NCBI GenBank assembly: GCA_022565805.1 | Contig: JAIULZ010000015.1 | Span: 1-44,726, forward strand | Reading direction: 5' to 3' | Length of the DNA stretch: 44,726 bases | From: Balneolales bacterium | GTDB taxonomy: Bacteria; Bacteroidota; Rhodothermia; Balneolales; Cyclonatronaceae | Shown: positions 11,442-44,608 of the stretch, one piece after another | Numbering within the stretch: position 1 is the stretch's first letter | Layout of the letters: each line of letters begins with the position of its first letter | Position numbers and translations under genes: made by a program | The notes under the pieces: model-generated | What the model saw: the letters and a program-made list of their open reading frames with translations, nothing else | The model's database searches: none | What the model was told of the DNA's origin: nothing

Positions 11442-12134
11442 TTACAAGCCTCCGTTAATAAATATATAGAGTGGTATTGCTAAAAAACCGAGCGAAAGCA
11501 ACAGGGCAACGATGCCTCCGACCGTGTAAAGAACAGGCGTTAGTTTAGGATTTTTTGCTCCAAGAGAAATAAAAGCGCTCCAAACTCCATGCTTAAGGTG
11601 CACGCCAATTAGCACCATAACAAAAGTATAGGCTGCAACAATCCATGGATTCTGAAATGCTTCAGAAACATGTCTGGCAAGGTCTACCATTTCTGTACCC
11701 TCTACCATGTATGTTTCCGGGCTAAACAGGTGGTATTTAAAGTGCATTACGTGCAGTACTACGAACAGCAGAATAATGCTACCGGAAATAAGCATCGATG
11801 TTGAAGCGAAGTTTTGCTTGCTGGGTCCGCCTTGTGATTTGTAGTACTTGTAGTTTTCCGGACGCGCCCTCTTTTTTTTCAGATAAATACTAACACCAAG
11901 GTAGGCATGAGTTAAAAACAGGATTACAAGAATAATTTCGGCTATCCAAAGCAAGGGACCAAGACTGTGCAGAAAATCTGCATACAAATTAAACGATTCC
12001 CCGCCGTCGGGAATAAAGAGTGAGAGATTGCCGGAAAGGTGAGCTACAAGAAAAAGTGTCAAGAAGATACCGGTAAGACCGGTTAAAATTTTGCGCCCAA
12101 CCTGCGACTGCAGAGCATTTGCAATTGTTGACAT
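11442..12134 (-). CDS. sdhC: Succinate dehydrogenase cytochrome b subunit
   Basis: The single membrane anchor of a type-B-like complex II, 230 residues with five predicted transmembrane helices (about 16-38, 60-84, 113-132, 163-182, 203-226). Candidate haem ligands are H32, H76, H128 and H179 or H182, which would support two haems b as in the Bacteroidota/Bacillus-type enzyme. It is the first gene of the operon and its stop abuts the sdhA start. The 350-bp region upstream is shared with the divergent yigZ-like gene and must contain the promoter. Confidence 0.93.
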   Translation of the reverse strand: MSTIANALQSQVGRKILTGLTGIFLTLFLVAHLSGNLSLFIPDGGESFNLYADFLHSLGPLLWIAEIILVILFLTHAYLGVSIYLKKKRARPENYKYYKSQGGPSKQNFASTSMLISGSIILLFVVLHVMHFKYHLFSPETYMVEGTEMVDLARHVSEAFQNPWIVAAYTFVMVLIGVHLKHGVWSAFISLGAKNPKLTPVLYTVGGIVALLLSLGFLAIPLYIFINGGL

Positions 12135-12484
12135 CAGTGAAATAATGGCTTAATGTTGAAGTTTATTCGAATACATATATTAATAATATAATAATTGAGC
12201 AGGCATTATGCGTATAACCAAGACTTGAAATTACCAATTTGTAATGCTTCTTAATAATCTAATGCCAGTATGCGAAATTAAAAATAAAAAATAGTACTTA
12301 GTTCTGAAATATAGGTTTCTGGAAAATACTCCTAAATAATAGTAAATTAAAGGCTCTTTTGCACGTAAATTATGGAGAATGGAGCTTTTTTAACGCTACT
12401 TTGGCTACAAAATTTCGACGTTTATTCCGGTCATTCACAAGCTCAACTGCCGCAAGCATTAATTAAATTATTTTTTACTCCGCG
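12135..12484. other. Divergent promoter region between sdhC and yigZ-like gene
   Basis: A very AT-rich 350-bp stretch with runs such as TATATTAATAATATA close to sdhC. It should hold the promoters for both directions. No reliable -33/-7 or -35/-10 pair, operator or riboswitch could be picked out. A short ORF starting at 12372 overlaps the yigZ-like gene in another frame and is not considered real. Confidence 0.5.
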
Positions 12485-13120
12485 ATGTCGCAAACATACC
12501 GACTGGTCCAAAATCATGTTAGTTTTGAGCAAAAAATACAGGGGTCACGTTTCCTTTCCTTCGCTATTAGATGTGATAGCAGAGAAGCTTTTGACCATGA
12601 AATTTCGGCTCTAAAAAAAGAACACTTCACCGCAACACATCACTGTTATGCTTGGCGGATAAACCCGTTTAAAACAGAGGAGTTTTCGCAGGATGATGGC
12701 GAACCTTCCGGCACAGCGGGAATGCCTATATTGAATGAACTTAGGTCCCGGAATTTTTGCAATACGGGTATTGTGGTTATTCGCTACTATGGCGGCACAA
12801 AACTCGGGAAAAGCGGGTTAATTCACGCCTATGGCTCTTCAGCAAAAATGGCGCTAGACCAAGCAGATTTATCTGAGCTACAAGCAGGGTTTTTGCACAA
12901 ACTTAGCTTTCCTTATGAACATAAACGCTTAATCGACGATATTGTAAAGGACTCGGACGCCACCATAGCTGATCAGGTTTTTACCCAGCATATTACCTAC
13001 AAAATTAAAATTGCAACTAATATGGTAGATCGTTTTACAGAATCTGTCGACAAACTATCATATCTTGGACTCACTTTACACAAACTGGGCCCGACTCTCA
13101 TTGAGTCTCCGATTAGCTGA
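12485..13120 (+). CDS. YigZ/IMPACT family protein
   Basis: A 211-residue cytoplasmic protein of the UPF0029 (IMPACT/YigZ) family. The N-terminal domain carries DDGEPSGTAGMPIL (70-83) and RYYGGTKLGKSGLIHAYG (100-117), the family signatures. The C-terminal domain (about 140-205) has the ferredoxin-like DUF1949-type layout. In eukaryotes IMPACT relieves GCN2 kinase; the bacterial role is unsettled. It stands alone, divergent from sdhCAB, with 276 bp to the next gene. Confidence 0.9.
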   Translation: MSQTYRLVQNHVSFEQKIQGSRFLSFAIRCDSREAFDHEISALKKEHFTATHHCYAWRINPFKTEEFSQDDGEPSGTAGMPILNELRSRNFCNTGIVVIRYYGGTKLGKSGLIHAYGSSAKMALDQADLSELQAGFLHKLSFPYEHKRLIDDIVKDSDATIADQVFTQHITYKIKIATNMVDRFTESVDKLSYLGLTLHKLGPTLIESPIS

Positions 13121-13223
13121 GTAGTTGAATAGCTGAATTTCACCTGTTTACGCTAATTCCCTTAAAGAAACGGTGCTATGTGTCTGTTGGGTTAATTGAT
13201 GTTTGGGTATTTATAACAGACCA

Positions 13224-13252
13224 CCCGAAAGCATTGCAAATATCGTTTCGGG
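13224..13252. other. Hairpin in the yigZ-like / pduO gap
   Basis: CCCGAAA (13224-13230) pairs with TTTCGGG (13246-13252) around a 15-base loop, about 105 bp after the yigZ-like stop. No T-run follows, so a terminator is uncertain. No B12-box was found near it although the next gene is cobalamin-related. Confidence 0.35.
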
Positions 13253-13352
13253 GCCCGTTCCGCTTTGAACAATGCTGAGGTATTAGAGTTGAAATTTATT
13301 CATTTGTAATTATTACCATTTACTTACACAAGCTGAAAAAAAATCCTCCATA

Positions 13353-13381
13353 TTGAGAACTGATTCACCTTTTTATATTAA
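13353..13381 (+). promoter_or_regulatory. Candidate sigma70-type promoter of the pduO-SGNH unit
   Basis: TTGAGA (13353-13358) and TATTAA (13376-13381) are separated by 17 bp. The predicted transcript would begin only about 10 bases before the ATG at 13397, giving a very short leader. Confidence 0.35.
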
Positions 13382-13396
13382 ACATTTTACTACTAC

Positions 13397-13939
13397 ATGA
13401 AAATTTACACTAAAACCGGCGACAAAGGACAAACATCTCTTTTTGGAGGGCAGCGGGTCGCCAAAAACTCCATAAGAATTGAAACCTACGGCACTGCCGA
13501 TGAGCTAAATTCTTTTATCGGTCTGGCGCGAAGCTATGGTCTCACCGATCGTAACGAAGAAATTGCCACAGACTTACAGAATATGCTTTTTGTTCTGGGC
13601 GCCGATTTAGCCACACCGCCAGAAAAAAAGGCGAAGATAGATCGTATTTCTGCAAGTCATATAGACAACCTGGAAAGCTACATAGATGAAATAACGGCTC
13701 AGCTACAACCGCTTCGGTATTTTGTCTTGCCAACAGGTACCAAAACAGCTTCTGCCCTGCATATTGCGCGTACCGTTTGCAGAAGAGCAGAGCGCATTTG
13801 CATTGAAGCAAGACAAACCGAGGATATTTCAGAAGAGATTATCATTTATCTTAATCGATTATCGGATTTACTTTTTACAATGGCCAGGCTCGAAAACGAG
13901 ACCTCGGATGTGCAGGAAACCAAATGGATAGTTCGTTAA
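13397..13939 (+). CDS. Cob(I)yrinic acid a,c-diamide / cob(I)alamin adenosyltransferase, PduO type
   Basis: Makes adenosylcobalamin by transferring the adenosyl group of ATP to cob(I)alamin. The 180-residue protein has the PduO signatures: YTKTGDKGQTSLFGG (4-18), the ATP loop TADELNSFIG (33-42), VCRRAER (127-133) and YLNRLSDLLF (151-160). One small departure is FVLPTGT where many relatives have FILPGG. It is 6 bp ahead of a large SGNH-hydrolase gene and likely co-transcribed with it. No cobalamin synthesis gene or B12 riboswitch is in the window, so it may salvage imported corrinoids. Confidence 0.93.
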   Translation: MKIYTKTGDKGQTSLFGGQRVAKNSIRIETYGTADELNSFIGLARSYGLTDRNEEIATDLQNMLFVLGADLATPPEKKAKIDRISASHIDNLESYIDEITAQLQPLRYFVLPTGTKTASALHIARTVCRRAERICIEARQTEDISEEIIIYLNRLSDLLFTMARLENETSDVQETKWIVR

Positions 13940-13945
13940 ACGATT

Positions 13946-15955
13946 ATGGCGCTCACTACCAAGCAGAAAGCTTACATCACAAAACATAAGGTTAACAAGT
14001 CTGCAAAGACTATAGCTGCAGATCTTAAACTTAATGTAGCCGAAGTTAATGAGTTTATCCTTAGCCAGAGTGAGGAAAGCAAACCCGATTCGGCACCCCA
14101 AAAAAAGAAGCAGCTTATTTTTACCGTAATTATGCTGCTTATCCCCGTCTTGTTTTTTGCTTCTCTCGAAATTGGCCTCAGGCTGGGTAATTATCGGGGC
14201 GACCTTTCCCTTTTTGTAGTCCCTAAGTCTTTGGATGGTAAATACGTAGTTCCTAATCCCAACTTCACTTCTCGTTATTTTTTTAGCACGCAGTCTAACC
14301 CGAGCCCATCCGACGATGTATTTCTTTTTGATAAACCCGAAAATAGTTTTCGTGTTTTTGTGATGGGTGGCTCTACGGCTAACGGCTATCCTTACGGGTT
14401 TAACGGTAGCTTTAGCCGTGTATTTCGGGATGCCTTGCAGGATGTAATGTACGACAGGCACGTAGAAGTGGTTAATGTGGCAACTTCGGCCATTAATACC
14501 TACAGTCTGTACGACCAAATTCGCGAAATTTTGCACTACGAACCCGACGCTATACTTGTCTATTCGGGTCATAACGAATATTATGGCGCGCTTGGTGTCG
14601 GCTCTTCCGAAACATTTGGTGCTTTTCCCGGATTTGTCCGCCTGTATTTGGGATTACAGCGATATAAAACGTTTTTACTAATACGCGACGGTATTACCAG
14701 AATGGCTTCTTTATTTGCCAGACCTACCGAAATGCAGCGTACCGGCACGCTTATGCAGCGTATGGTAGCTCAGCAGCAAATACCGCTCGACAGCGATATC
14801 TACCAGCTTGGCAAGAATCAGTTTGAAAGTAACCTTAACGCAATCATGAAGCGTTTTGGAAGAAAAGATATTCCCGTTTTCATAGGTAGTCTTACCAGTA
14901 ACCTTAAAGATCATGCTCCTTTCTTATCGGTTGCCTACAACGATCACCCGCCAGCGGCAGATGTATTCAACGAGGCTCTGAGAGCCTATTCTAATGAGCA
15001 ATATGATGAAGCCAGACAAGGTTTCATTCGCGCCAAAGACCTGGATGCACTACGTTTCCGGGCTCCTGAATCGTTTAACGAAATCATTTACAGAACATCG
15101 AACCGGCATTCAAATGTTACTTTTGTTCCGGTTTCAGAATATTTCACGGATGCCAGCACAAACGGAATTGTTGGGTTTGAGCTCATGCTCGAGCACCTTC
15201 ATCCTAACCTTTCCGGTTACCATCTAATGGCACAAGCCTATCTGGAAACTTTCGTACAAACATTTATGAGTGGAGAATCTGGCCGCTTGAATCCTGATTG
15301 GGAATACTACCGCGGAAGAATGCAAATAACTGAATTAGATGAGCGCATTGGGGATCATCGCATAAAGTTACTAATGAATAGTTGGCCGTTTCGGGAATCA
15401 AGAGACCCGTTTGGTTACCCAAGAAACTATAGATTTACATCAGAAGCCGACAGTATGGCTTTCTTAGTGGTTCATGAAAGCAAAAGGTGGGATCAGGCCA
15501 AAGTTGAGCTCGCCACTATTTATGAGCGAACGAATCGTCCACATCTTGCCCTGGCAGAATATCACGGACTAATGCGGGCGCAGCCATTTAACGACAGCCC
15601 TTTCTTGTTTGCCGCACGTATATGGTTAGCCCAAAATAATTTTGTTGAAGCCAGGCCCCTACTCGAACAGGCTTTGGCCATAGAAACATCGGCGTTTGCA
15701 TCCAGAATGCTTGGAGCTATAGAAGTCGATTCCGGCAACATAGATATTGGCATAGAGCTTTTGGAACAATCTCTTAAAATAGAGTCACGGGATGCTCAGG
15801 CACTGTTTAACCTGTCGGGCGCCTATGGGCTTAAGCGCGATTTCTCTAAAGCAGATGAAGTTTTGCGTAGGCTGGAATCTATAGACCCCAATTTCCCGGG
15901 TGCAAGACAATGGAGACAACAGCTGGATGCGCATCTCAGAAACAGTTCACGCTAA
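13946..15955 (+). CDS. Membrane-anchored SGNH-hydrolase-like protein with TPR tail
   Basis: A 669-residue protein in three parts. Residues 1-40 look like a small helix-turn-helix-type domain (AKTIAADLKLNVAEVNEFI). One transmembrane helix lies at about 57-75. An SGNH fold follows: probable nucleophile S143 in VMGGSTANG, N210 in SGHNEYYG and H419 in EHLHPN, where E416 takes the place of the usual Asp of DxxH. A helical tetratricopeptide region covers about 500-665. SGNH enzymes cleave or transfer acyl groups on sugars and lipids; envelope polysaccharide acetylation is a reasonable guess only. The 6-bp gap suggests co-transcription with the PduO-type gene. Confidence 0.75.
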   Translation: MALTTKQKAYITKHKVNKSAKTIAADLKLNVAEVNEFILSQSEESKPDSAPQKKKQLIFTVIMLLIPVLFFASLEIGLRLGNYRGDLSLFVVPKSLDGKYVVPNPNFTSRYFFSTQSNPSPSDDVFLFDKPENSFRVFVMGGSTANGYPYGFNGSFSRVFRDALQDVMYDRHVEVVNVATSAINTYSLYDQIREILHYEPDAILVYSGHNEYYGALGVGSSETFGAFPGFVRLYLGLQRYKTFLLIRDGITRMASLFARPTEMQRTGTLMQRMVAQQQIPLDSDIYQLGKNQFESNLNAIMKRFGRKDIPVFIGSLTSNLKDHAPFLSVAYNDHPPAADVFNEALRAYSNEQYDEARQGFIRAKDLDALRFRAPESFNEIIYRTSNRHSNVTFVPVSEYFTDASTNGIVGFELMLEHLHPNLSGYHLMAQAYLETFVQTFMSGESGRLNPDWEYYRGRMQITELDERIGDHRIKLLMNSWPFRESRDPFGYPRNYRFTSEADSMAFLVVHESKRWDQAKVELATIYERTNRPHLALAEYHGLMRAQPFNDSPFLFAARIWLAQNNFVEARPLLEQALAIETSAFASRMLGAIEVDSGNIDIGIELLEQSLKIESRDAQALFNLSGAYGLKRDFSKADEVLRRLESIDPNFPGARQWRQQLDAHLRNSSR

Positions 15956-32533: not shown

Positions 32534-35500
32534 TTGGCAACTACGCTTCAAAATAATACACACTTGAACACTAATCTGAACACATTTCGCGCGGCCCTAC
32601 TTCTGCTGTTATTGCTGTTATCATTTCCAGCAACAACTTACGCTCAGTCTTTTAAAGTACACCAGCAGACTGCCACATTTACAGACTACGTTTTTTCGAA
32701 CGATAGTCTAAATGTACGTGCGCCTCAATATCTGCAGGTTCCATATATTTCCGGCGAAAGACGCTACAGAATTCTGGAACAAGAAGTCGTTCCTGTTCGT
32801 AACCCCCGAATACGATCTGATGTACCCGAAGCCAGACAGCATCTTTCAGCTTTACTTGCTACCTCAGAAGAACCCCTTGTTGTAGCCTCTCCGGTTCGTG
32901 AGTACAGGAAACAGCTAAAATCTACGCTTCAGGTAAATGTAGCCCGAATCAGTAGCCGCGACAATAACAGCTACCTTGTAGCCCGCCACCTTGTAATTCG
33001 TGTTTACAACGAAACCAGCTGGTCGCCTTCTGCTATACAAGCTGCCGAAAATATGTCGCAGCGCCTTAGCAGTGAAGGCATGCAACACCCGCTCTCTACA
33101 GGCAACTGGTACCGAATACCCATAACAAGAAATGGCATATACCGGCTCGATCGGGCATACCTCGAATCACTTGGAATTAATGCTGGTAGTATTGATCCAA
33201 GAAATATTCAGATTTGGGGCACAAGCGGCTATCAACTCCCATACGAAAACGCAGCTTCCAGACCTTCTTTCGAACAGATTCCAATAATTGTTGAGGGTGA
33301 AAGTAACGGAAGTTTTGGTAGTTCCGATGCGGTATTTTTTTACGCCAACGACGTTAATGAACGTATTTTCGATCCAGCAAACCGAAGCTGGAGTCACAAG
33401 CTGCACTCTTATTCCAAAATAAATTATGTTTACATTACTGTTGGACCGGAAAGAGGGTTACGCCTTACAAATTTTACCCCGCAGGGCACTGTTTCCGAAA
33501 CAATTACCCAGTTTCGTGATTTTCTATGGTTAGAGGAAGATCTTTTTATGCCGGAATCGCAACAACGTTCAGGCACAACTTGGTTTGGGAAACTTTTCAC
33601 ACCGGAATTTAGCAGCGATGTTATTTTTCGCGATACACTGGCAGGCTACATACAGGGTACACCTATTGAATTCACCGCGCGAATGGCTGGCCGCTCCCGT
33701 ACTGCAATGACCTTCGATTTTTTTCAAAATAATAATTCGTTTGGGTCAATCAACATTGCCGCAATAAGTGATTTACAGGGAGCTACGGGAAGAAATTCAA
33801 ATTTTGGAAACATTATACGGATTCTTAATAACCCTACACTTCAAAATAACGACGTATTCGAGATACGGGCAGATTTTAGCACAACATCTCTCGAATCGCG
33901 CGGCTGGGTAGATTATATTAATGTAAGAGCTACACGCACTCTTTCCCCGGTTAATGGTCGTCTTCAGTTTTTAAGTCCGGATGATGCCCCATTAAGTGGC
34001 AATCAGGTTGCTGAATACCGTTTTAGTGGTTTTACTCAGCGACCACTGGTTATGGATGTAACTAATCCTGCTTCTCCGGTGCTTCTGCCCGCTAACGGTA
34101 ATGGCAATAACTGGTCTGTAAACTATTACAAGCGGGCGGGGCAGAAAATGATCGCACAAACAAATTTTTACAGGCCTGCAGCAGGAGAAGCTGTTATAAA
34201 CCAGAATTTGCACGGGATTAATTTTTACCCCAACTACATTATTGTAACCTCAGCTTCATTGCTTGAAGAAGCCGAGCGCCTTGCCGATTATCGCACCAAC
34301 CGTAATGGCTTTAGAACGGTAGTTGTAACTCAAGAACAAATTTTCCACGAATTTTCTGGCGGAGTGCCCGACCCTACTGCTATACGGGATTTTCTGAAGT
34401 ATTTGTATGATTACGCCGGACTAAACGAAGAACTGCTTCCCGAGTACCTGGTCATGTTTGGAAACGCCACCTTCGACTATAAAGGTATCGAGCAGTCACC
34501 CATGCAAAATCTGGTGTTTAACTTTCAGCATTATGTAGATCAGGACAATCTCTCCCGAGCAGGAACCTACGGCAGCGACGATTTCTTTGGATTTTTAGGG
34601 GATGATGAGGGCTCATGGAGATCTTCTGACCTGAATAACCGTCTGGATCTGAAAATTGGTCGTTTACCAGTCCAAACACTCAATGAAGCGCGCATTATGG
34701 TTGATAAAATCATCACCTTTGAAAACCGTGATCAGGACGGGGACTGGCGCACTTTGTTTACCTTTACGGCCGATGACAACGATAATGGTGGCGGAAACGA
34801 GCGCGACTTGCATACATTCAACGCCGATTTCACTGCAGATACCATAGATCAGGACGCATCCGGAATCAGGCTCAGAAAATTGTATCAGTTCAGATACCCG
34901 ATCGAAAATACGCCGGCCGGGCAGCGGGTACCGCAAGGCACTTCAGCAATTATACAGCAAATAAATAGCGGCACCTTAACTTTTCATTTTTCGGGACATG
35001 GTAGTGAGCAACAGCTTACTCGCCAACGACTTTTTCAATCTTCGGATATCCCAAGGCTTACAAATAGAGAACGACCCACTATTTTAGTTACAGCTACCTG
35101 CTCTTTTGGTCGCTACGACGACAATATAGATTTCTCGGGTGCCGAAAAATTAATGTTACACGATAATGGTGGCGCTGTAGCGGCATTCACTACTTCGAGA
35201 GTTGTTTTTACAAGCCCTAACCCATCCCTCGATAACGACAATAATTTTTCTCTCCATATCGAGCTAACTAATCAAATGGTGCAGCGAAATCCGGATGGTT
35301 CGGGCCGGTCTATCGGGGAAATTTTTAAACGCACGAAAAACTCAATTCTGGCTACCAATGAAACCCGTAATACTTTTAGCGTAAATAATAGAAAGTTTAT
35401 TCTACTGGGAGACCCGGCTATGTCTTTCGGGCTTCCGGAACAACAAATGACAATTAGTTCAATAAATGGGCAAACAGATTTCGAAGGTGGACCAATACAG

Positions 35501-36559
35501 ATTCGTAGCCTCGACCGCGTAAATATAAATGGATTTGTTCAGTCGCCTAATGGTGGTATAGACGCTTCGTTTAATGGCGAGGGCTTGCTTCGGGTATATG
35601 ATGCGGCCAGAATCGAGGAATTGCCAAATCCGGAGCTCACTTGCAATTATCTTGGTCCGGAATGTGGTTTTCGCGTGCAAAACGATCTTTTATTTAACGG
35701 AAGAGTAAGTATAACAAATGGCGAGTTTTCTGCAGAATTCATCGTTCCTAAAGATATTGCCTACTCCGATTCGTTAGCACGTATTCATATTTATGCTACA
35801 AACCCCGACCGAACCGATGCGGTTGGGTCTTTTTCATCCATTCGCTTTAATGGTATTAATGAAGAAGCCCAAAACCTGTTTGATGGGCCCGAGTTAGATG
35901 TTTATCTAAACGATGATACCTTTGTTAATGGCTCACTTGTTAACAGAAACCCGCAGTTAATTGTAGATGTGAATAGCGAAGGCGGTGTAAATACTACTGG
36001 CGCAGGTGTAGGCCACGAAATTATAGGTATTTTAAGAAATACTAACAATCCACAGCAGGAGCAAACGTTTATACTAAACGACTTCTATACCAGCGCATTA
36101 GACGACTTTACCCGTGGTCGTATCGAATACCCGCTGGATAACCTGCCCGATGGCAGCTATTCCCTGTTCGTTCGCGTTTGGGATGTATTCAACAATGTTG
36201 GCGAGTCTGAAATATTTTTTGATGTTGCAGGCGGTGGAAATCTGCTCATACGAAACGTGTACAACTATCCTAACCCAATGCACAACTTCACCCGTTTTGC
36301 ATTCGAGCATAATCAGCCTGCTGGTCAACCGATGGATGTTTTTATACGTATTTATACATTGAGCGGCAGACCCGTTGCACAAATCAGAGAAAGCAGGATT
36401 GCAAACGGAAACCTGGAAATGTTTGAGTGGGCTGGTCGCGACGACGATATGAACCGTCTTGCTGCCGGCACATATCTTTACCATCTTCGTGTTCGAACAG
36501 ATGGGCCAGAAGGGCGACAAACCGAAGAAAAAATTGAACGACTCGTAATTATTCGCTAA
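32534..36559 (+). CDS. porU: Type IX secretion system sortase PorU (C25 peptidase family)
   Basis: PorU sits on the cell surface, removes the C-terminal signal of T9SS cargo and attaches A-LPS. The 1341-residue protein has a signal peptide (hydrophobic Leu-rich run, ending TTYAQS) and a gingipain-type catalytic domain: H822 in HFSGHGSEQ and C856 in TATCSFGRYDD. A C-terminal Ig-like/FlgD-like module ends in VIIR (about 1235-1341). The frame has no upstream ATG; an in-frame TAA lies at 32504, so the start is TTG at 32534 or a later TTG, which is rare here. A hairpin sits just ahead of it. It is 180 bp before porV. Confidence 0.92.
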   Translation: MATTLQNNTHLNTNLNTFRAALLLLLLLLSFPATTYAQSFKVHQQTATFTDYVFSNDSLNVRAPQYLQVPYISGERRYRILEQEVVPVRNPRIRSDVPEARQHLSALLATSEEPLVVASPVREYRKQLKSTLQVNVARISSRDNNSYLVARHLVIRVYNETSWSPSAIQAAENMSQRLSSEGMQHPLSTGNWYRIPITRNGIYRLDRAYLESLGINAGSIDPRNIQIWGTSGYQLPYENAASRPSFEQIPIIVEGESNGSFGSSDAVFFYANDVNERIFDPANRSWSHKLHSYSKINYVYITVGPERGLRLTNFTPQGTVSETITQFRDFLWLEEDLFMPESQQRSGTTWFGKLFTPEFSSDVIFRDTLAGYIQGTPIEFTARMAGRSRTAMTFDFFQNNNSFGSINIAAISDLQGATGRNSNFGNIIRILNNPTLQNNDVFEIRADFSTTSLESRGWVDYINVRATRTLSPVNGRLQFLSPDDAPLSGNQVAEYRFSGFTQRPLVMDVTNPASPVLLPANGNGNNWSVNYYKRAGQKMIAQTNFYRPAAGEAVINQNLHGINFYPNYIIVTSASLLEEAERLADYRTNRNGFRTVVVTQEQIFHEFSGGVPDPTAIRDFLKYLYDYAGLNEELLPEYLVMFGNATFDYKGIEQSPMQNLVFNFQHYVDQDNLSRAGTYGSDDFFGFLGDDEGSWRSSDLNNRLDLKIGRLPVQTLNEARIMVDKIITFENRDQDGDWRTLFTFTADDNDNGGGNERDLHTFNADFTADTIDQDASGIRLRKLYQFRYPIENTPAGQRVPQGTSAIIQQINSGTLTFHFSGHGSEQQLTRQRLFQSSDIPRLTNRERPTILVTATCSFGRYDDNIDFSGAEKLMLHDNGGAVAAFTTSRVVFTSPNPSLDNDNNFSLHIELTNQMVQRNPDGSGRSIGEIFKRTKNSILATNETRNTFSVNNRKFILLGDPAMSFGLPEQQMTISSINGQTDFEGGPIQIRSLDRVNINGFVQSPNGGIDASFNGEGLLRVYDAARIEELPNPELTCNYLGPECGFRVQNDLLFNGRVSITNGEFSAEFIVPKDIAYSDSLARIHIYATNPDRTDAVGSFSSIRFNGINEEAQNLFDGPELDVYLNDDTFVNGSLVNRNPQLIVDVNSEGGVNTTGAGVGHEIIGILRNTNNPQQEQTFILNDFYTSALDDFTRGRIEYPLDNLPDGSYSLFVRVWDVFNNVGESEIFFDVAGGGNLLIRNVYNYPNPMHNFTRFAFEHNQPAGQPMDVFIRIYTLSGRPVAQIRESRIANGNLEMFEWAGRDDDMNRLAAGTYLYHLRVRTDGPEGRQTEEKIERLVIIR

Positions 36560-36739: not shown

Positions 36740-37855
36740 ATGAAGCAACTTACAAAATCGCTGTTTACCGTTACGGCTCTCACTCTGCTATTTGCAGGTC
36801 AGGCGCTGGGACAGGTAGGTATAACTGCTGTACCATTCATGCAAATCGAACCTGATTCACGCACTCCCGGCATGGGTAATGCAGGTGTTGCCATAGCAGA
36901 CAATGCATCAGCTGTATTCTGGAACCCCGCCGGACTGGCCTTCCAGGAAAAAGAAACTCAGATGTCTTTTACCTACGCTAACTGGCTGCCTGCATTCGAT
37001 ACCGACCTTTTCTACATTTACAACGTAGGTAAAACCTATATAGAAGGCATCGGAACAATTGGCGGGCACATCACCTATCTAAACTTGGGTGAACAAATCC
37101 AAACCGATGAGCGCGGAAATGTAATTAGAGACTTTTCGAGTTACGAACTTGCTGCCGGCGTTAGCTACGGCTTCCGGATTACCGATAATTTTGCAGCAGG
37201 CTTGGGCGCACGATTTATTTACAGCCGTCTTACACCCAATATCGATGTAGGTGGCCAAACAGCAAAGGCAGGTACCTCTTTCGGAATGGATCTTGGCGCT
37301 CTTTATCGCACAAATGAATTCATGCTTCTCGATAGAACAGCCCGTTTCAGCGCTGGTTTTAACCTTTCTAATGTTGGCCCGCCTATACAGTATACAGACG
37401 ATGCACAAAGTGATCCTCTTCCTACACTTCTTCGCGTTGGAATTGCACAAGATATCGCTTTAGACGAAGAAGGGTTTAATACTCTTACTTTCGCCTTCGA
37501 CGTCTCTAAAATAATGGCACGGAACGACACCTCCGGCCGGGCTATGGCTGTTGGCGAGGCTCTTTTCCGCTCATGGGATACCTACACCCGATTCGATGGG
37601 CAGCAGTTTGTAGATGTACCTTTGGTTGAGCAGTTTATGTATGCTGTTGGCGTAGAATACTGGTACAATAAGATGTTTGCTATCCGTACAGGTTATTTCT
37701 ATGAAGCGCCCAACAACGGGGATCGTCAGTTTATAACTTTTGGTGCCGGACTCAGATACAATATGTTTGGCGTAGATTTCAGTTATTTATATACGCTTCG
37801 AGAGGATCACCCTCTGGCAAATACCATTCGATTATCGGTATTACTGAATTTCTGA
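36740..37855 (+). CDS. porV: Type IX secretion system outer-membrane shuttle PorV
   Basis: PorV (LptO) collects CTD-cargo from the Sov translocon and delivers it to PorU. The 371-residue protein starts with a signal peptide (ending near ALGQ). The family block follows as DSRTPGMGNAGVAIA and ASAVFWNPAGLAF, then repeated amphipathic strands of a FadL-type 14-strand barrel end in RLSVLLNF, a typical outer-membrane terminal motif. It is directly downstream of porU, the known partner, which makes the identification firm. A 41-bp gap leads to the next gene, so the cargo protein is probably co-transcribed. Confidence 0.92.
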   Translation: MKQLTKSLFTVTALTLLFAGQALGQVGITAVPFMQIEPDSRTPGMGNAGVAIADNASAVFWNPAGLAFQEKETQMSFTYANWLPAFDTDLFYIYNVGKTYIEGIGTIGGHITYLNLGEQIQTDERGNVIRDFSSYELAAGVSYGFRITDNFAAGLGARFIYSRLTPNIDVGGQTAKAGTSFGMDLGALYRTNEFMLLDRTARFSAGFNLSNVGPPIQYTDDAQSDPLPTLLRVGIAQDIALDEEGFNTLTFAFDVSKIMARNDTSGRAMAVGEALFRSWDTYTRFDGQQFVDVPLVEQFMYAVGVEYWYNKMFAIRTGYFYEAPNNGDRQFITFGAGLRYNMFGVDFSYLYTLREDHPLANTIRLSVLLNF

Positions 37856-37896: not shown

Positions 37897-40800
37897 ATGC
37901 ACTTCATTTTCATTACGGGCAGAAGAATTACCCTTTGCGGGGTTCTTCTGCTTTTTTTTATGCTCCCTGCTACTGCTCAGAATAACGCTGAGCTAATAAG
38001 CAAAGATATCCACTATACTCCATACCACAGGATTTCCGAAGATGACCGGCTTATTAACCGGACAACTCCAGGGCAGGCTTTAGGGACCGGGACTATACAT
38101 ATAGTGGCTGTAATGGCAGAGTTTGAACCCGAAGAAAACCGATTTACCTCCGGTAATGGTACCTTCGAGCTCGACTATCTTATGCGAGACGATATCATTA
38201 TCGATCCGCTGCCGCACGACCGGGGTTATTTCGAAGCTCATCTGGAGTTTGTTAAGAATTATTTTGACCAAGCCTCTTTTGGTCAGCTTAACGTAGAATA
38301 CATTGTTCTACCAGAAATTGTGCAGCTATCCGAGCCTATGCGGGAGTATTCCCCAACCGGTCCGGATAATTCACTAAACTTCCGGCTCGGCAATTTAGCA
38401 AGAGATGTTTGGGAGCAGGTTGCCCAAATGAGTCTACCATCCGAAATTGATCAACTGCCGCAGGACAGAACCATGTTCATACTGTTCCATGCGGGTGCAG
38501 GACGCGATATTGAGCTTACCGGAACCACGCTCGATAATACCCCACAGGATATTCCATCCGTTTATTTAAGCAGCGAAAGTATTGGCCGGCTTTTAGACGA
38601 GCCCGGCTTCGATGGCTTCCCTATAACCGAAAATCTTCGGGTTACCAACACTGCTATTCTCCCGCAAACACAGTCTCGCAGGGGTGAAGACGTAACCGGA
38701 GAAGAGTTTGTGCTCGAGCTTTCTATTAATGGCATTGTTACCGCTAATGTTGGCTCATTTATAGGAATTCCCGATTTATTTAACACCAACACAGGCGCAT
38801 CCGGTATTGGTCAGTTTGGTTTGATGGATGGCGCCGGAATCTTTTCTTATTACGGGCTATTCCCGCCTTTACCCTCTGCATGGGAAAGAGTGTATATGGG
38901 GTGGGATTCTGCATTCGATGTGCGATTAGACGATCAGGAGATTCTACTGCCATCCATAGCTGGCAACCCTCCCGGGAATATAGCCCGCCACAGGATCTCT
39001 GCTGATGAATATTTCCTGGTTGAAAACCGCCACCGTGATCCTTCTGACGAAGGCGTTACACTTACAATTCGTACACCCAATGGCCTTATTGAGACCAGAA
39101 CTTTTGATAATAATGAAGAACGCTTCACCCCAACATCTCAGCGTGATTTTGATGAAATTTTGCCCCCCGGTGTTTTAATTAACGTAAGTAATTTCGACTG
39201 GAGTCTTCCGGGTGGTCTGGATATTGGGGAAGATGGTGTGTCCGGCTCCGACGACGACAGAATTCTTAACGGCGGTATGCTAATCTGGCATATAGATGAA
39301 GCCGTAATTCGTTCACAGATGCCCAATAACGCGATCAATAATAATCCGGATCGCCGAGGAGTTGGCCTGGTTGAGGCAGACGGAGCTCAGGATATTGGGA
39401 GACCGGCATTAGGTTTTTCGAATTTTTCAAACGGTGGCCCATTCGACTTTTGGTGGTCGGGAAACGACTTTACGGTAATCACTCCAACAGGTCAGCGTAT
39501 TGTTCTATACGAAAACCGGTTTGCCGACGACAGCATCCCGCCAAACCGCAGCAACACCGGAAGCCCTACCTATTTCGAGTTTTATGACTTTTCAGACAAC
39601 ATCGCAATTTCATCTTTCAGAGCCAGAAGAGCCGGGAGCGATCAGGTTGAACTTTTATACGAAGTGCAACTCGACGGAAACTTTGCCTTAGATCCTTTAT
39701 ATGGCATTAGCTGGCCTGTTACAACCGCATGGTTTGTTCCCCAAACCAGTGCTAACTCTGTGTATGATGCATATTTGTTGGTTCCCTCATCAGATAACAT
39801 AAACGCCATCCCCTATCTTAGAGAGCAGGGTTTTGTAGAAGACGGGTACCTGCAGTTTGGCTCTGGCACAACAACTCCATTACTTATAACCGAATCTGTT
39901 ACCTCCGTAAAATCTGCTTCATCCGGCTTTTTGATTCAAAACTGGATTTACAGCGATGGAGCATTCGAGTTGCGCTGGGAACAGCAACAGGATGCGCCGC
40001 TAAATGGAATGCCAAGCCGCGGCCCCGGCGCAAACAGCCTTATCCATTTAGACGGAACTCCATTTCAGTTTGATGAGCAAACCGGCCAAATTACTACCAT
40101 TAACGGCGGGTTCCAGGAAAGCGGCTCTATCGATTCTCAAACTGCCGTAATACAGAACCTAAGCCTTTCGTTTAACGGAACAGAGCGAAACCTGGATGCC
40201 TACGGATCAGATCGCAGACTGTATGCCGCTCTTGTACAGCCCGAAGCTTCCGCACCGGCTCAACCATTGCTAATCAGCGATGATGAGCTGATTCTGCTTG
40301 GCCCTGGCAGCTCTGACGACATTACACTTACGCGTTCCTCTTTTTCATGGCCCGCGATTACCGATCTTAATCAGGACGGAAATCTGGACTACCTTTTTGT
40401 GAACTATGAGGAAAACCAGCTTGAGGCCAAAAACCGGAATGGTGGTTTCCTTTGGAACTTCCCGGCCCGCACTCCCGAAGGCGTTCGTCTGGCGGGCACT
40501 CCCCTTCTTGGAGATTTTACCGGCACAGGAGAAACAAGCATTCTTGTACCAGCTGCAGACAGCCTGTCTTACGTAATACTGGGCTACGATAATAGACTGC
40601 AGCCTCTGGATGGATTCCCTCTGTACGTGGGCTCATTAAATCATTCGGGAGAGGCTCTTCACCAGCCTGTTTTCATAGATTCTGAAAGTCTGCTTGCCGT
40701 AGTTTCCCCACGAGGCGACCTCAAGGTCTGGAAACTTGGTGAAGCCGAGGATCTTTCCTGGAGCCGCGTTTATGGTCTGCTACCTGGCAATAAAGTGGCG

Positions 40801-41121
40801 GCTGCCTACAGCGGGAGTGCTCAAACCCAGCCGCTTTCCGGTCTTTTAAATAAAAGCGAAACCTATAACTGGCCAAACCCGGCCTCTACGGAAACCTGGA
40901 TTCGTTTCCAAACCCAAACCGAAGCCGATATTACCATATCTATTGCTTCTATGAGTGGGCGCATGCTTTATGAGCAAAGAGTTAGATCGCGCGGAGGTAC
41001 TGCCGAAGAAGTTCGCGTGGACACATCCGGCTGGAGCAGCGGTGTTTACTTTGCGCGGGTACGGGCACAGGCAGATGGAAGAGAAGAAACTGAACTGATT
41101 AAAATTGCAATCATTCGCTAA
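37897..41121 (+). CDS. T9SS cargo with degenerate M6-metallopeptidase domain
   Basis: A 1074-residue secreted protein. The signal peptide ends around TAQNN. Residues about 60-620 follow the immune-inhibitor-A (M6) framework: HIVAVMAEF near the start, then FILFHAGAG, then GIGQFGLMDGAGIFSYYG and PSAWERVYMGW, and ILNGGMLIWHIDE. The place of HExxH reads ANVGS (283-287, within GIVTANVGSFIGIPDL), so no zinc site is left there. A calcium-type repeat DLNQDGNLD begins at 823. A C-terminal type-A sorting domain (from NWPNPAST at 991 to IAIIR) sends it to PorU/PorV. It probably binds rather than cuts. A catalytic role is unlikely but not excluded. Confidence 0.85.
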   Translation: MHFIFITGRRITLCGVLLLFFMLPATAQNNAELISKDIHYTPYHRISEDDRLINRTTPGQALGTGTIHIVAVMAEFEPEENRFTSGNGTFELDYLMRDDIIIDPLPHDRGYFEAHLEFVKNYFDQASFGQLNVEYIVLPEIVQLSEPMREYSPTGPDNSLNFRLGNLARDVWEQVAQMSLPSEIDQLPQDRTMFILFHAGAGRDIELTGTTLDNTPQDIPSVYLSSESIGRLLDEPGFDGFPITENLRVTNTAILPQTQSRRGEDVTGEEFVLELSINGIVTANVGSFIGIPDLFNTNTGASGIGQFGLMDGAGIFSYYGLFPPLPSAWERVYMGWDSAFDVRLDDQEILLPSIAGNPPGNIARHRISADEYFLVENRHRDPSDEGVTLTIRTPNGLIETRTFDNNEERFTPTSQRDFDEILPPGVLINVSNFDWSLPGGLDIGEDGVSGSDDDRILNGGMLIWHIDEAVIRSQMPNNAINNNPDRRGVGLVEADGAQDIGRPALGFSNFSNGGPFDFWWSGNDFTVITPTGQRIVLYENRFADDSIPPNRSNTGSPTYFEFYDFSDNIAISSFRARRAGSDQVELLYEVQLDGNFALDPLYGISWPVTTAWFVPQTSANSVYDAYLLVPSSDNINAIPYLREQGFVEDGYLQFGSGTTTPLLITESVTSVKSASSGFLIQNWIYSDGAFELRWEQQQDAPLNGMPSRGPGANSLIHLDGTPFQFDEQTGQITTINGGFQESGSIDSQTAVIQNLSLSFNGTERNLDAYGSDRRLYAALVQPEASAPAQPLLISDDELILLGPGSSDDITLTRSSFSWPAITDLNQDGNLDYLFVNYEENQLEAKNRNGGFLWNFPARTPEGVRLAGTPLLGDFTGTGETSILVPAADSLSYVILGYDNRLQPLDGFPLYVGSLNHSGEALHQPVFIDSESLLAVVSPRGDLKVWKLGEAEDLSWSRVYGLLPGNKVAAAYSGSAQTQPLSGLLNKSETYNWPNPASTETWIRFQTQTEADITISIASMSGRMLYEQRVRSRGGTAEEVRVDTSGWSSGVYFARVRAQADGREETELIKIAIIR

Positions 41122-41185: not shown

Positions 41186-44100
41186 ATGACCAAAAAGAAA
41201 CCATTAAGCTATAAAGACGAAGCCATACAGCTTCCCACAAGGCGTTTTTCGCTCTTTATATTTTTATTTCTGCTCATTATTACCGTCAAAACCAGCTTTT
41301 GGGAAGAAGCAGCTGCACAGCAGAGACCGGCATTTTTGTCGTATCCGCATAACCATCTCGACTGGTACACCATAGAAAGCGATCGGTTTCTGGTGCATTT
41401 TCAGGAAGGTAACGACCGGCCGGCAAGAGTAATTTCGCGTATTTCTGAAGAAATTTGGGATGACATCACCAGTCTGTACGATTATGAGCCCGATACGCCC
41501 ATCAGCATTGTTTTAATAGATCGGGAAGACTACTCAAACGGAGCCGCGTATTTCTTCGATAATAAAATTGAGATATGGCTGCCTTCGCTCGATACTCCGT
41601 TTCGCGGCACTAATAATTGGCTTAGGGATGTAATCGCACACGAATTTACACACCTTGTGCAGATACAGGCTTCTATGAGCGGAAAAAGATCGAGGCCGAT
41701 AACTTATGTACAGTGGCTTTCATACGAGAATGTTCGTCGCCCGGATGTGCTGTACGGCTATCCGTCGGGTATCATTTCGTATCCTTTTTCGACCGTGAGT
41801 ATGCCTGCATGGTTTGCAGAAGGGACCGCTCAGTTTATGCGAGACGATCTCCATTACGACTACTGGGATACCCACCGCGACATGATGTTGCGTACACGTA
41901 TTTTAGATGGCAAAGAGCTGGGTCTGGTCGAAATGGGCCACTTTCAGTCGAAAAACAGCATGGAAAGAGAGCTTTCCTATAATCAGGGGTTTGCATTTAC
42001 GCAGTATTTATCGAACCGGTTTGGAGAGCAAGTAATTGCAGACATTACGCATGGGCTTAAAACCACAAATGACATTCGTACTTCCATGCGCAGGGTAACC
42101 GGCATTCCAGGCGAGCAGCTTTATCGTGAATGGACCGATAGCCTTCGCACAGAATACAGGGCCTATGCGGCCAATATTAATCCTTTCGAAGCTAAAAAAG
42201 TATATGATCTCGGTTTTATAAATGTGCATCCAAGCTTTACGCCCGATGGAAAAATTGCGTTTCTGAGCAATACATTTTTCGATTTTGCGCGGACTCAGCT
42301 CATCGTTCTGGATGAAGACGGCACAAAAAGAGAGCTTTTGGATACAGGTAACGCCGAGCAGTCTGCCGGTGCGGGTTCGTTCCGCCACAGCTGTGGCATG
42401 TTCTCCACGCCGCTCATCAGCCGAATCGGAAGCGGCTTTAGCTTTTCCCCCGATGGAAAAACCATTGCCTATAATTTTATCCGTCAAAACCGATATGGCG
42501 AAACATATAACGATATTTATCTGTACGATACCGATTCGGGCGATACACGTAAACTAACCCGCGATGCCCGATTAAGCGAGCCCAGCTGGAGCCCGGATGG
42601 CAGTACTTTAGCAGCCCTTCAAACGAAAGACGGAACCATCAACCTTGTTTTGGTAGATCCCGAAACGGGCGATATTAAGCCGCTTAGCAGCTTTAACCGC
42701 AGTGAGCAGCTCTTCCGGCCAGCCTGGAGCCCCGATGGAAGCCGCATTTATGCCGCAATGGGTGCCCAAAAAGGCAGGAATATCGTAGTTTTTAACCCGG
42801 ATGAGCCTGATAAGTGGGATATTCTGCTTATGAATCCCGAGCTGGATATGCGCGACCCTTTTGTTTCGCCCGATGGCAAATTTCTTTACCTATCTGTAGA
42901 CCGAAATCATAAATTCGATATTTATCGCTACAATCTGAAAGAAGGCGGGAATCTGGAGCAGCTAACCGATGTAGTTGGCGGAGCATTTATGCCGCATATT
43001 AGCGAAAACGGAGATCTGCTTTACAGCGAGTTTACCTCAATGGGCTACAAAATAAGAAAAGCACCCGTCGATTCGCTCCTCGCCCATGCCGCAGCTAATC
43101 AGCTGGCGGTGCGCCCTGCATTCGGGCCGCCTCTTCGCCCCGACATGACAACAAACCCGCTCAATACGTTCGACGACATGGATATTGAGCCCTTTGATGA
43201 TGACATTTACCGCATTGCGCGCAGCGAACCCTATAGCTTCGATTTAAGAACTCGTGGAGCCAATCAAGAACGACTGTTCTATTCGTATGAAGACACTTTC
43301 CTGAATTTCAGCTTTTTACCCGCCGTGCGTTTCGATAATTACTCTCAGGAATTCGGGCGCAACAGCTCGCTCATTCGCGCCGGAAATTTTGGAGATTTAG
43401 GTCGAAATATCATCAGAGACACTAAGCTCGGTTTCTACATGAGTTCGCGGGAAGTTTTAGAGCGATTTTCAATTTTCGGCGGACTTCTGGTCGGACCCGC
43501 ATCCCGCGAAGCAGATACCATCAATAATTTCTTTAGTCCGGGCAGGTTGATTGATCTGGACAGAGACTTATTTTTCATAGCCGAATACACCGGTCTGCCT
43601 TTTATTGAGCGGCACTGGTCCCCTACTATCGAAGTTGCATTCTACAACCTCCGCAGAAACGTTCGCGATGGCATCGATATCGAAGAATTTGCCTGCACCG
43701 CCTGTTTACCCGACACCACCTCTATTGATATTGCCTACGATATCTGGCAGGCAGAGATAAATTTATATAGCAAGATAAACCGATACAGCCTCGTACAGCT
43801 GGGCTGGCACCACTCTCCGTACCGGGTTTCGACGGCTTCTTTTTTCTCTAACGAGTTTGAGCAATTTGTACCCGGCTCAACCGCCCGCTACTTTATCGGT
43901 AACACCTTAACCGCAGCTTATGTAGTAGATGCCTACCTGCCATACCGCCACGGAGATATTGCCCCGCTTGGTTTTAGAGGGCATATACGCTACAGCTATG
44001 AACCCAGCAGACTGCTCGACAGTTACGAGATTCGAGACGGAACACTCATTCCTGTTTACAACACTTTCCGTAATCACTCGGTAGAATTAGACGCTCGTTA

Positions 44101-44608
44101 TGGCTTTATGGGGCCGTTTTTCCGGGTATTCCAGGCAAGAGCAAGATTATTCTCCTACTTTGACAATCCCGACGAGTACTTCTTTCTGGATTATATTGGC
44201 GGTTTCGACGGGATGCGTAGCTACCCATTTTTTGCACTTGGCGGCAATCGTACTGCGTTCGGGCAAGTTTCTTTTTATCAGCCGCTATTTACAAATATAA
44301 ACCGGCAGTCTGGCAGATTTACGCTGGATAAAGTCTTTGCCCGCTTTTTTGCGGAAACCGGAAACGGCTGGGGTGGACCGCTTGATATCGGAGACAATTT
44401 AAAAACCGGAATCGGCGCAGAACTTCGGATAGCGGTAAATTCGTATTACCTGTTTCCATCCAGATTTTTTATAAGCGGGGCTTACGGCCTCAACCAGTTT
44501 AACCTCCGTATCCCGGATGGTTTTGTAAGTGCCGATCAGCGTGAAAACGTTACTTTCGGTGGCGAGGTTCTCATCAATTTTGGTCTGCTGTTCGATTTCG
44601 AACTTTAG
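41186..44608 (+). CDS. Gluzincin peptidase / TolB-like propeller / Omp85-like barrel fusion
   Basis: A 1140-residue envelope protein in three parts after a signal peptide (about 20-45). The first is a gluzincin peptidase with zinc site H152, E153 and H156 in AHEFTHLVQ and a third ligand E212 in WFAEGTAQF. The second is a TolB-type propeller (about 335-640) with repeated PDGK/PDGS blades: SFTPDGKIAF, SFSPDGKTIA, SWSPDGSTLA, AWSPDGSRIY and FVSPDGKFLY. The third is a C-terminal beta barrel (about 700-1140) whose GGFDGMRSYPF...ALGGNRTAFGQ region recalls the Omp85/surface-antigen motif, with RSY for RGY. The soluble parts could face either side of the outer membrane. It lies 64 bp after the M6-like cargo gene, and its catalytic residues are intact. 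Confidence 0.85.
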   Translation: MTKKKPLSYKDEAIQLPTRRFSLFIFLFLLIITVKTSFWEEAAAQQRPAFLSYPHNHLDWYTIESDRFLVHFQEGNDRPARVISRISEEIWDDITSLYDYEPDTPISIVLIDREDYSNGAAYFFDNKIEIWLPSLDTPFRGTNNWLRDVIAHEFTHLVQIQASMSGKRSRPITYVQWLSYENVRRPDVLYGYPSGIISYPFSTVSMPAWFAEGTAQFMRDDLHYDYWDTHRDMMLRTRILDGKELGLVEMGHFQSKNSMERELSYNQGFAFTQYLSNRFGEQVIADITHGLKTTNDIRTSMRRVTGIPGEQLYREWTDSLRTEYRAYAANINPFEAKKVYDLGFINVHPSFTPDGKIAFLSNTFFDFARTQLIVLDEDGTKRELLDTGNAEQSAGAGSFRHSCGMFSTPLISRIGSGFSFSPDGKTIAYNFIRQNRYGETYNDIYLYDTDSGDTRKLTRDARLSEPSWSPDGSTLAALQTKDGTINLVLVDPETGDIKPLSSFNRSEQLFRPAWSPDGSRIYAAMGAQKGRNIVVFNPDEPDKWDILLMNPELDMRDPFVSPDGKFLYLSVDRNHKFDIYRYNLKEGGNLEQLTDVVGGAFMPHISENGDLLYSEFTSMGYKIRKAPVDSLLAHAAANQLAVRPAFGPPLRPDMTTNPLNTFDDMDIEPFDDDIYRIARSEPYSFDLRTRGANQERLFYSYEDTFLNFSFLPAVRFDNYSQEFGRNSSLIRAGNFGDLGRNIIRDTKLGFYMSSREVLERFSIFGGLLVGPASREADTINNFFSPGRLIDLDRDLFFIAEYTGLPFIERHWSPTIEVAFYNLRRNVRDGIDIEEFACTACLPDTTSIDIAYDIWQAEINLYSKINRYSLVQLGWHHSPYRVSTASFFSNEFEQFVPGSTARYFIGNTLTAAYVVDAYLPYRHGDIAPLGFRGHIRYSYEPSRLLDSYEIRDGTLIPVYNTFRNHSVELDARYGFMGPFFRVFQARARLFSYFDNPDEYFFLDYIGGFDGMRSYPFFALGGNRTAFGQVSFYQPLFTNINRQSGRFTLDKVFARFFAETGNGWGGPLDIGDNLKTGIGAELRIAVNSYYLFPSRFFISGAYGLNQFNLRIPDGFVSADQRENVTFGGEVLINFGLLFDFEL

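Follow-up and report, generated by a model that had tools for sequence, protein, structure and literature searches.

The window, the 44,726-nucleotide stretch of Balneolales DNA that was analysed, is the whole of contig C15 in an assembly of 4.47 Mb and 290 contigs. Towards its end lie four genes on one strand, three belonging to the T9SS and the fourth encoding a peptidase-propeller-Omp85 protein for which we coined the label MAprop in this analysis:

32534..36559, + strand: porU, T9SS sortase (NF033707, 979 bits, cut-off 420)
36740..37855, + strand: porV, T9SS shuttle (NF033710, 287.6 bits, cut-off 250)
37897..41121, + strand: M6i, T9SS cargo, an inactivated M6-like metalloprotease (NF052323, 1092.7 bits, cut-off 600)
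38725..38880, + strand: dead M6 active-site region of M6i, residues 277-328 (alignment, conservation)
40870..41073, + strand: type A T9SS sorting domain (CTD) of M6i (PF18962 34.6 bits, TIGR04183 31.5 bits, both above cut-off)
41186..44608, + strand: MAprop gene (open reading frame, 1140 aa; AlphaFold2 model)

The MAprop reading frame is unbroken from the ATG at 41186 to the stop at 44608 and encodes 1140 residues. A phage origin was ruled out, as PHROGs gave no match. Its upstream neighbour M6i is matched by an NCBIfam profile (NF052323) named for a T9SS-dependent M6-like inactivated metalloprotease, and HExxH is found in 0/69 aligned homologues. Despite the loss of HExxH in 69/69, residues 277-328 of M6i are among its best conserved stretches, as expected for a pseudoenzyme that has kept a role in binding.

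Gene order was surveyed in 60 loci from Balneolota, Rhodothermota and Ignavibacteria that had more than 8.2 kb of upstream sequence. The order porU-porV-M6i-MAprop on one strand was found in 57/60, the remaining three lacking porU alone, and M6i lay directly upstream of MAprop in 70/70 loci with enough flank. MAprop is thus linked genomically to T9SS genes, and the conserved neighbourhood that the original prediction looked for around homologues is present.

Domain architecture of MAprop

The protein was divided as follows:

41186..41317, + strand: low-confidence N-terminus, with a hydrophobic helix at residues 19-34 ending AAAQ (sequence and model)
41321..42175, + strand: Peptidase MA (gluzincin) domain, residues 46-330 (Pfam and NCBIfam profiles, motif, conservation)
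41639..41653, + strand: HEFTH zinc-binding motif, residues 152-156 (HExxH kept in 80/80 MAprop-family sequences examined)
41819..41821, + strand: E212 (in PAWFAEGTAQ), presumed third zinc ligand (invariant column, 54 sequences)
42194..43066, + strand: TolB-like six-bladed propeller, residues 337-627 (PD40; TolB structural matches)
43310..44605, + strand: 16-stranded Omp85-type barrel, residues 709-1140 (two AlphaFold2 models; fold matches)
44213..44224, + strand: L6 motif MRSY, residues 1010-1013, between barrel strands 11 and 12 (model and alignment)

The AlphaFold2 model of the full-length protein (pLDDT 84.6, pTM 0.83) consists, from N- to C-terminus, of a mixed helical domain (46-330) and the propeller (337-627), then a linker leading into the barrel of 16 strands; by inspection, the N-terminus is a putative Sec signal peptide. 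For comparison, we collected 79 relatives among Balneolota, Rhodothermota and Ignavibacteria; an alignment was made of 54 sequences. NCBIfam searches returned partial similarity to TolB and to HExxH peptidases, all of it far under the NCBIfam equivalog cut-offs. Domain searches, AlphaFold2 and barrel fold matches together upheld the original prediction that a peptidase, a propeller and an Omp85-like barrel share one polypeptide. No T9SS sorting domain (Por_Secre_tail) was matched in MAprop by Pfam or NCBIfam, the C-terminal end being a barrel strand, and a role as T9SS cargo was ruled out for lack of such a domain.

The zinc site proved intact, as had been claimed: H152-E153-xx-H156 and E212 are complete by sequence and invariant across the 54-sequence alignment, and E212 would be the third zinc ligand by analogy with other gluzincins. 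Pfam Peptidase_MA_2 matched the window protein weakly (23.4 bits against a cut-off of 32.4) and exceeded its cut-off in two relatives (L050 and L014). The nearest named profiles to the catalytic domain were flagellinolysin (NF033876), which matched in 31/31 MAprop members searched, and the MXAN_6640-type HExxH peptidases (NF045524), both scoring far short of their curated cut-offs. Flagellinolysins lie within flagellin and have no outer-membrane barrel anchor. Profile searches of the PDB with the peptidase alignment and with the barrel alignment gave chance matches alone, so that the peptidase assignment rests on the motif, Pfam and NCBIfam evidence. Conservation among MAprop relatives peaks in the peptidase domain (mean 2.92 bits per column, compared to 2.33 for the barrel and 2.13 for the propeller), which fits a working enzyme; judging from its sequence, the domain is presumably proteolytically active.

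A five-bladed propeller had been predicted; the propeller stands and the count does not. Five PD40 repeats score in Pfam (74.9 bits against a cut-off of 20.9, E 4e-21), while the AlphaFold2 model contains six four-stranded, TolB-like blades. A fold search aligned it to TolB with Z 26 (about 245 residues, rmsd 2.5-2.8). TolB itself is a soluble Tol-Pal protein of the periplasm, with an N-terminal domain of its own. Though it shares this fold, MAprop scores 76.6 against a cut-off of 343 for TolB (TIGR02800), and its propeller is set between a peptidase and a barrel.

Since propeller matches filled the fold search of the whole model, the barrel was modelled separately (pLDDT 86). Both the whole-protein and the barrel-only AlphaFold2 models contain 16 strands between residues 709 and 1136, which excludes the absence of a barrel after residue 700 and bears out the predicted C-terminal, 16-strand Omp85-like barrel. 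With VIA-align, the best 50 PDB matches were all members of the Omp85 superfamily, including BamA of D. radiodurans (Z 23.5; rmsd 4.3 across 331 residues) and of E. coli (Z about 21-22), FhaC (Z 22.9), TamA (20.9) and Sam50 (20.2); Foldseek also returned Omp85 matches (E 7e-8). At the L6 position between strands 11 and 12, which in BamA is occupied by VRGF, MAprop relatives have M/V/A-R/K-G/S/A-Y (MRSY, ARGY and MKGY types). Pfam Omp85 (PF01103) gave no match in the window protein and weak matches in 3/54 family barrels (best E 1e-4). By strand count, nearest fold and L6 motif, the modelled barrel would place MAprop in the Omp85/TpsB superfamily. No POTRA match was found, the region before the barrel being the propeller and an 80-residue linker; canonical Omp85 proteins such as BamA, TamA and FhaC differ in bearing periplasmic POTRA domains.

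Co-occurrence of MAprop and M6i

To follow the genes across genomes, 198 near-complete genomes were drawn from the phylum. Orthologues and paralogues were well separated by score, with listed paralogues below 160 bits and full-length unbroken orthologue matches at 865 bits or more. MAprop and M6i were each found in 77 genomes, PorU in 135 and PorZ in 113, and the MAprop and M6i sets were identical (77/198). PorU and MAprop occurred together in 72 genomes, PorU without the pair in 63 and the pair without PorU in five (G028, G036, G044, G047, G058). The original prediction of a functional set comprising MAprop, the dead protease and porU/porV is supported by these counts, but with five genomes that keep the pair and lack porU, and 63 with porU and no pair, MAprop is partnered more tightly by M6i than by porU/porV. 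The 63 genomes also argue that MAprop would be at most a clade-specific part of the T9SS. A porU-porV locus without the pair was seen at L100 and L101 (families f6, f8 and f9 have PorU and PorV and no pair).

The two genes were adjacent in 68/77 pairs. Three non-adjacent cases (G003, G072, G213) may reflect contig breaks. Six others (G064, G128, G135, G165, G173, G176) appear truly unlinked, on separate contigs or about 0.86 Mb apart, yet retain both genes; in G064, porU, M6i and porV lie together and MAprop about 0.86 Mb off. One genome (G055) has neither gene, its genus mate G036 both. As presence varies mostly between families and independent gains and losses are few, the perfect co-occurrence partly reflects shared descent, and independent events number far fewer than 198. 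A mirror-tree analysis gave partial r values of 0.06 for M6i-MAprop and 0.56 for both MAprop-PorV and M6i-PorU, that is, no preferential M6i-MAprop signal, and is uninformative, probably because rate classes are shared between the two barrels and between the two exported proteins.

The pair is independent of PorU and PorZ. At three Balneolota loci (L095-L097), porV, M6i and MAprop are consecutive and porU is absent, while in PorU-less Balneolota the CTD of M6i still exceeds its cut-off and is conserved at least as well as the M6i body. SprA was present in 14/14 genomes tested, and the PorU-less Balneolota genomes among those tested kept it together with 7 to 33 CTD matches. The persistence of the pair and of an intact M6i CTD without porU indicates that the pair does not need the sortase. 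PorZ coexists with M6i in most pair-bearing genomes and is absent together with PorU, which ruled out M6i as a stand-in for PorZ. Like the PorU-PorV-PorQ-PorZ attachment complex, MAprop shares the porU-porV operon and its partner bears a type A CTD; unlike PorZ, which goes missing with PorU, MAprop and M6i stay, and the pair is thus no PorZ substitute.

Several other observations were made in these genomes. First, a T9SS without the PorU sortase was seen in G028, G036, G044, G047, G055 and G058 (same order) and in G181 and G224 (same class): PorU and PorZ fell below threshold there, yet SprA and 7-33 CTD matches were found, and porV is retained beside M6i in those examined. Second, in PorU-less Balneolota the gene of a secreted protein (about 300 aa) starts at or a few bases from the MAprop stop (L095:15201-16163, L096:15063-15950, L097:14984-15964). 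The one copy scanned had no NCBIfam match, and in the window the contig stops before this downstream gene could appear. Third, many genomes of the same phylum (e.g., G117, G165, G128, G185) contain a second, longer PorU-like reading frame (about 1360-1930 aa), perhaps PorU2, which at 230-260 bits falls short of the PorU cut-off. Lastly, the source genome (G000) has 115 T9SS sorting-domain matches, compared to 7-46 in other members of the order tested.

Topology and candidate roles

When an Omp85 barrel has an even number of strands, its N-terminus lies in the periplasm. In PlpD, an enzyme domain N-terminal to an Omp85 barrel resides only in the periplasm (PMC11116518), a result that recently overturned the accepted topology. 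Because a 16-strand barrel follows them and PlpD offers a precedent, the MAprop peptidase and propeller are probably periplasmic, contrary to the original prediction of a peptidase at the cell surface.

We tentatively favor, at somewhat less than even confidence, a reading in which MAprop is an outer-membrane-anchored metallopeptidase paired with the T9SS-exported pseudoprotease M6i in a complex across the membrane. MAprop would enter the periplasm via Sec, and its Omp85-type barrel would be inserted in the outer membrane with propeller and peptidase below, as barrel topology and PlpD suggest. M6i, predicted to lie outside, would be exported by the T9SS through its CTD, brought by PorV, and would most likely be seated on the outward side of the MAprop barrel at loops L3-L6. 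With M6i outside and the enzyme in the periplasm, contact through the outer loops would be the simplest mutual need. The complex may then cleave or clear a T9SS-related client on the periplasmic side; the client is a guess, with outer-membrane proteins in transit and clients of the T9SS as the natural candidate substrates. Among the long extracellular loops, L6 is the most conserved (3.03); L5 is conserved, L3-L4 are near the barrel average and L1, L2 and L7 are variable. Conserved L3-L6 against variable L1, L2 and L7 is as expected for a partner-binding surface, but to our knowledge internal requirements keep L6 conserved throughout the Omp85 proteins, which makes loop conservation weak evidence of a partner.

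Less likely, though still worth weighing, MAprop could be mainly an assembly factor, an Omp85 insertase or translocase like TamA or BamA that is dedicated either to some outer-membrane component of the T9SS or to the seating of M6i. Its propeller would serve as a BamB-like platform, and its peptidase would degrade or trim clients that fail. The barrel is nearest to BamA, FhaC and TamA and has the L6 motif, and the same role was proposed for WD40-Omp85 proteins (PMC4104836). PlpD, however, is described as evidence of an Omp85 scaffold adapted for novel functions (PMC11116518), the best conserved domain of MAprop is its peptidase and not its barrel, and SprA and PorU occur in many genomes without MAprop, which is therefore not generally needed to build them.

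Display at the surface, as originally predicted and as in the original type Vd model, is unlikely. The N-terminal domains would be exported by the barrel or another route, with the peptidase acting outside together with M6i; a common location would be simple given the predicted export of M6i, and FplA of Fusobacterium is described as a type Vd autotransporter (PMC5724010). The full-size barrel that follows these domains instead points to the periplasm, MAprop has no T9SS CTD match, and about 580 residues of folded propeller and peptidase would need to cross. No patatin match was found in MAprop, whose N-terminal domain is Peptidase MA and so not the type Vd passenger. Inheritance of one porU-porV cassette by two genes in unrelated processes is consistent with the frequent adjacency and the mirror-tree result, but is improbable given that both genes are retained in the six unlinked genomes and that the pair persists where the neighboring porU is gone.

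Should MAprop and M6i indeed form a complex across the membrane, MAprop would be a metallopeptidase with an Omp85 anchor, matched one-to-one with a T9SS pseudoprotease over several phyla or classes, an unannotated protein present in 59/60 relatives would gain a partner and a testable role, and the T9SS of these lineages would have parts missing from the Porphyromonas and Flavobacterium models. These results suggest that MAprop and M6i constitute a previously unstudied two-protein device of the T9SS. A far bolder version, which we consider a long shot, is that Balneolota, Rhodothermota and Ignavibacteria share a new transmembrane T9SS module in which surface M6i controls the periplasmic zinc peptidase through the Omp85 barrel, independently of the PorU sortase; an outside event would then switch proteolysis inside without that sortase.

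Relation to described Omp85 proteins and paralogues

Omp85 proteins are regarded as assembly and secretion machines, and enzymatic Omp85 fusions are few. PF00149 is, we presume, the calcineurin-like metallophosphoesterase family. The "Omp85-metalloprotease" class of Heinz and Lithgow rests on that profile (PMC4104836) and would thus differ from MAprop. By architecture, MAprop fits their WD40-Omp85 subfamily, which they discussed as a BamA-BamB fusion and in which a TolB-like propeller takes the N-terminal, non-POTRA position before the barrel (PMC4104836). For this subfamily, that account mentions neither a peptidase domain nor a link to the T9SS, whereas MAprop has an intact gluzincin domain before the propeller and the T9SS pseudoprotease M6i as its constant partner. 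MAprop resembles PlpD in having an enzyme domain N-terminal to an Omp85 barrel, in PlpD a periplasmic one, but PlpD combines a patatin lipase with POTRA (PMC11116518) and MAprop a metallopeptidase with a propeller. The architecture had been called unusual, which now holds for the peptidase version and not for propeller-Omp85 fusions, which are already described (PMC4104836), nor within a genome that has two paralogues. Literature covering few subscription journals and preprints yielded no publication on the Peptidase MA-propeller-Omp85 combination or on its pairing with M6i. What appears to be new is the active-type, intact peptidase and the strict pairing with M6i; propeller-Omp85 fusions are known.

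The two paralogues in the same genome, L091:3679-6885(-) and L092:5289-8441(-), have the peptidase-propeller-barrel layout. The first carries HELAH and VRGF motifs, and the second exceeds the Pfam cut-offs for Peptidase_MA_2, PD40 and Omp85 (Omp85 30.0 against 24). Together with weaker second and third MAprop-like matches in many relatives' genomes, they indicate that this architecture constitutes a small family, of which, in its own genome, the window MAprop is the T9SS-tied member. Both paralogues lie outside any T9SS locus seen, and one gene further on from the L092 copy is a TamB-like protein (11746-14001), recognized by inspection only.
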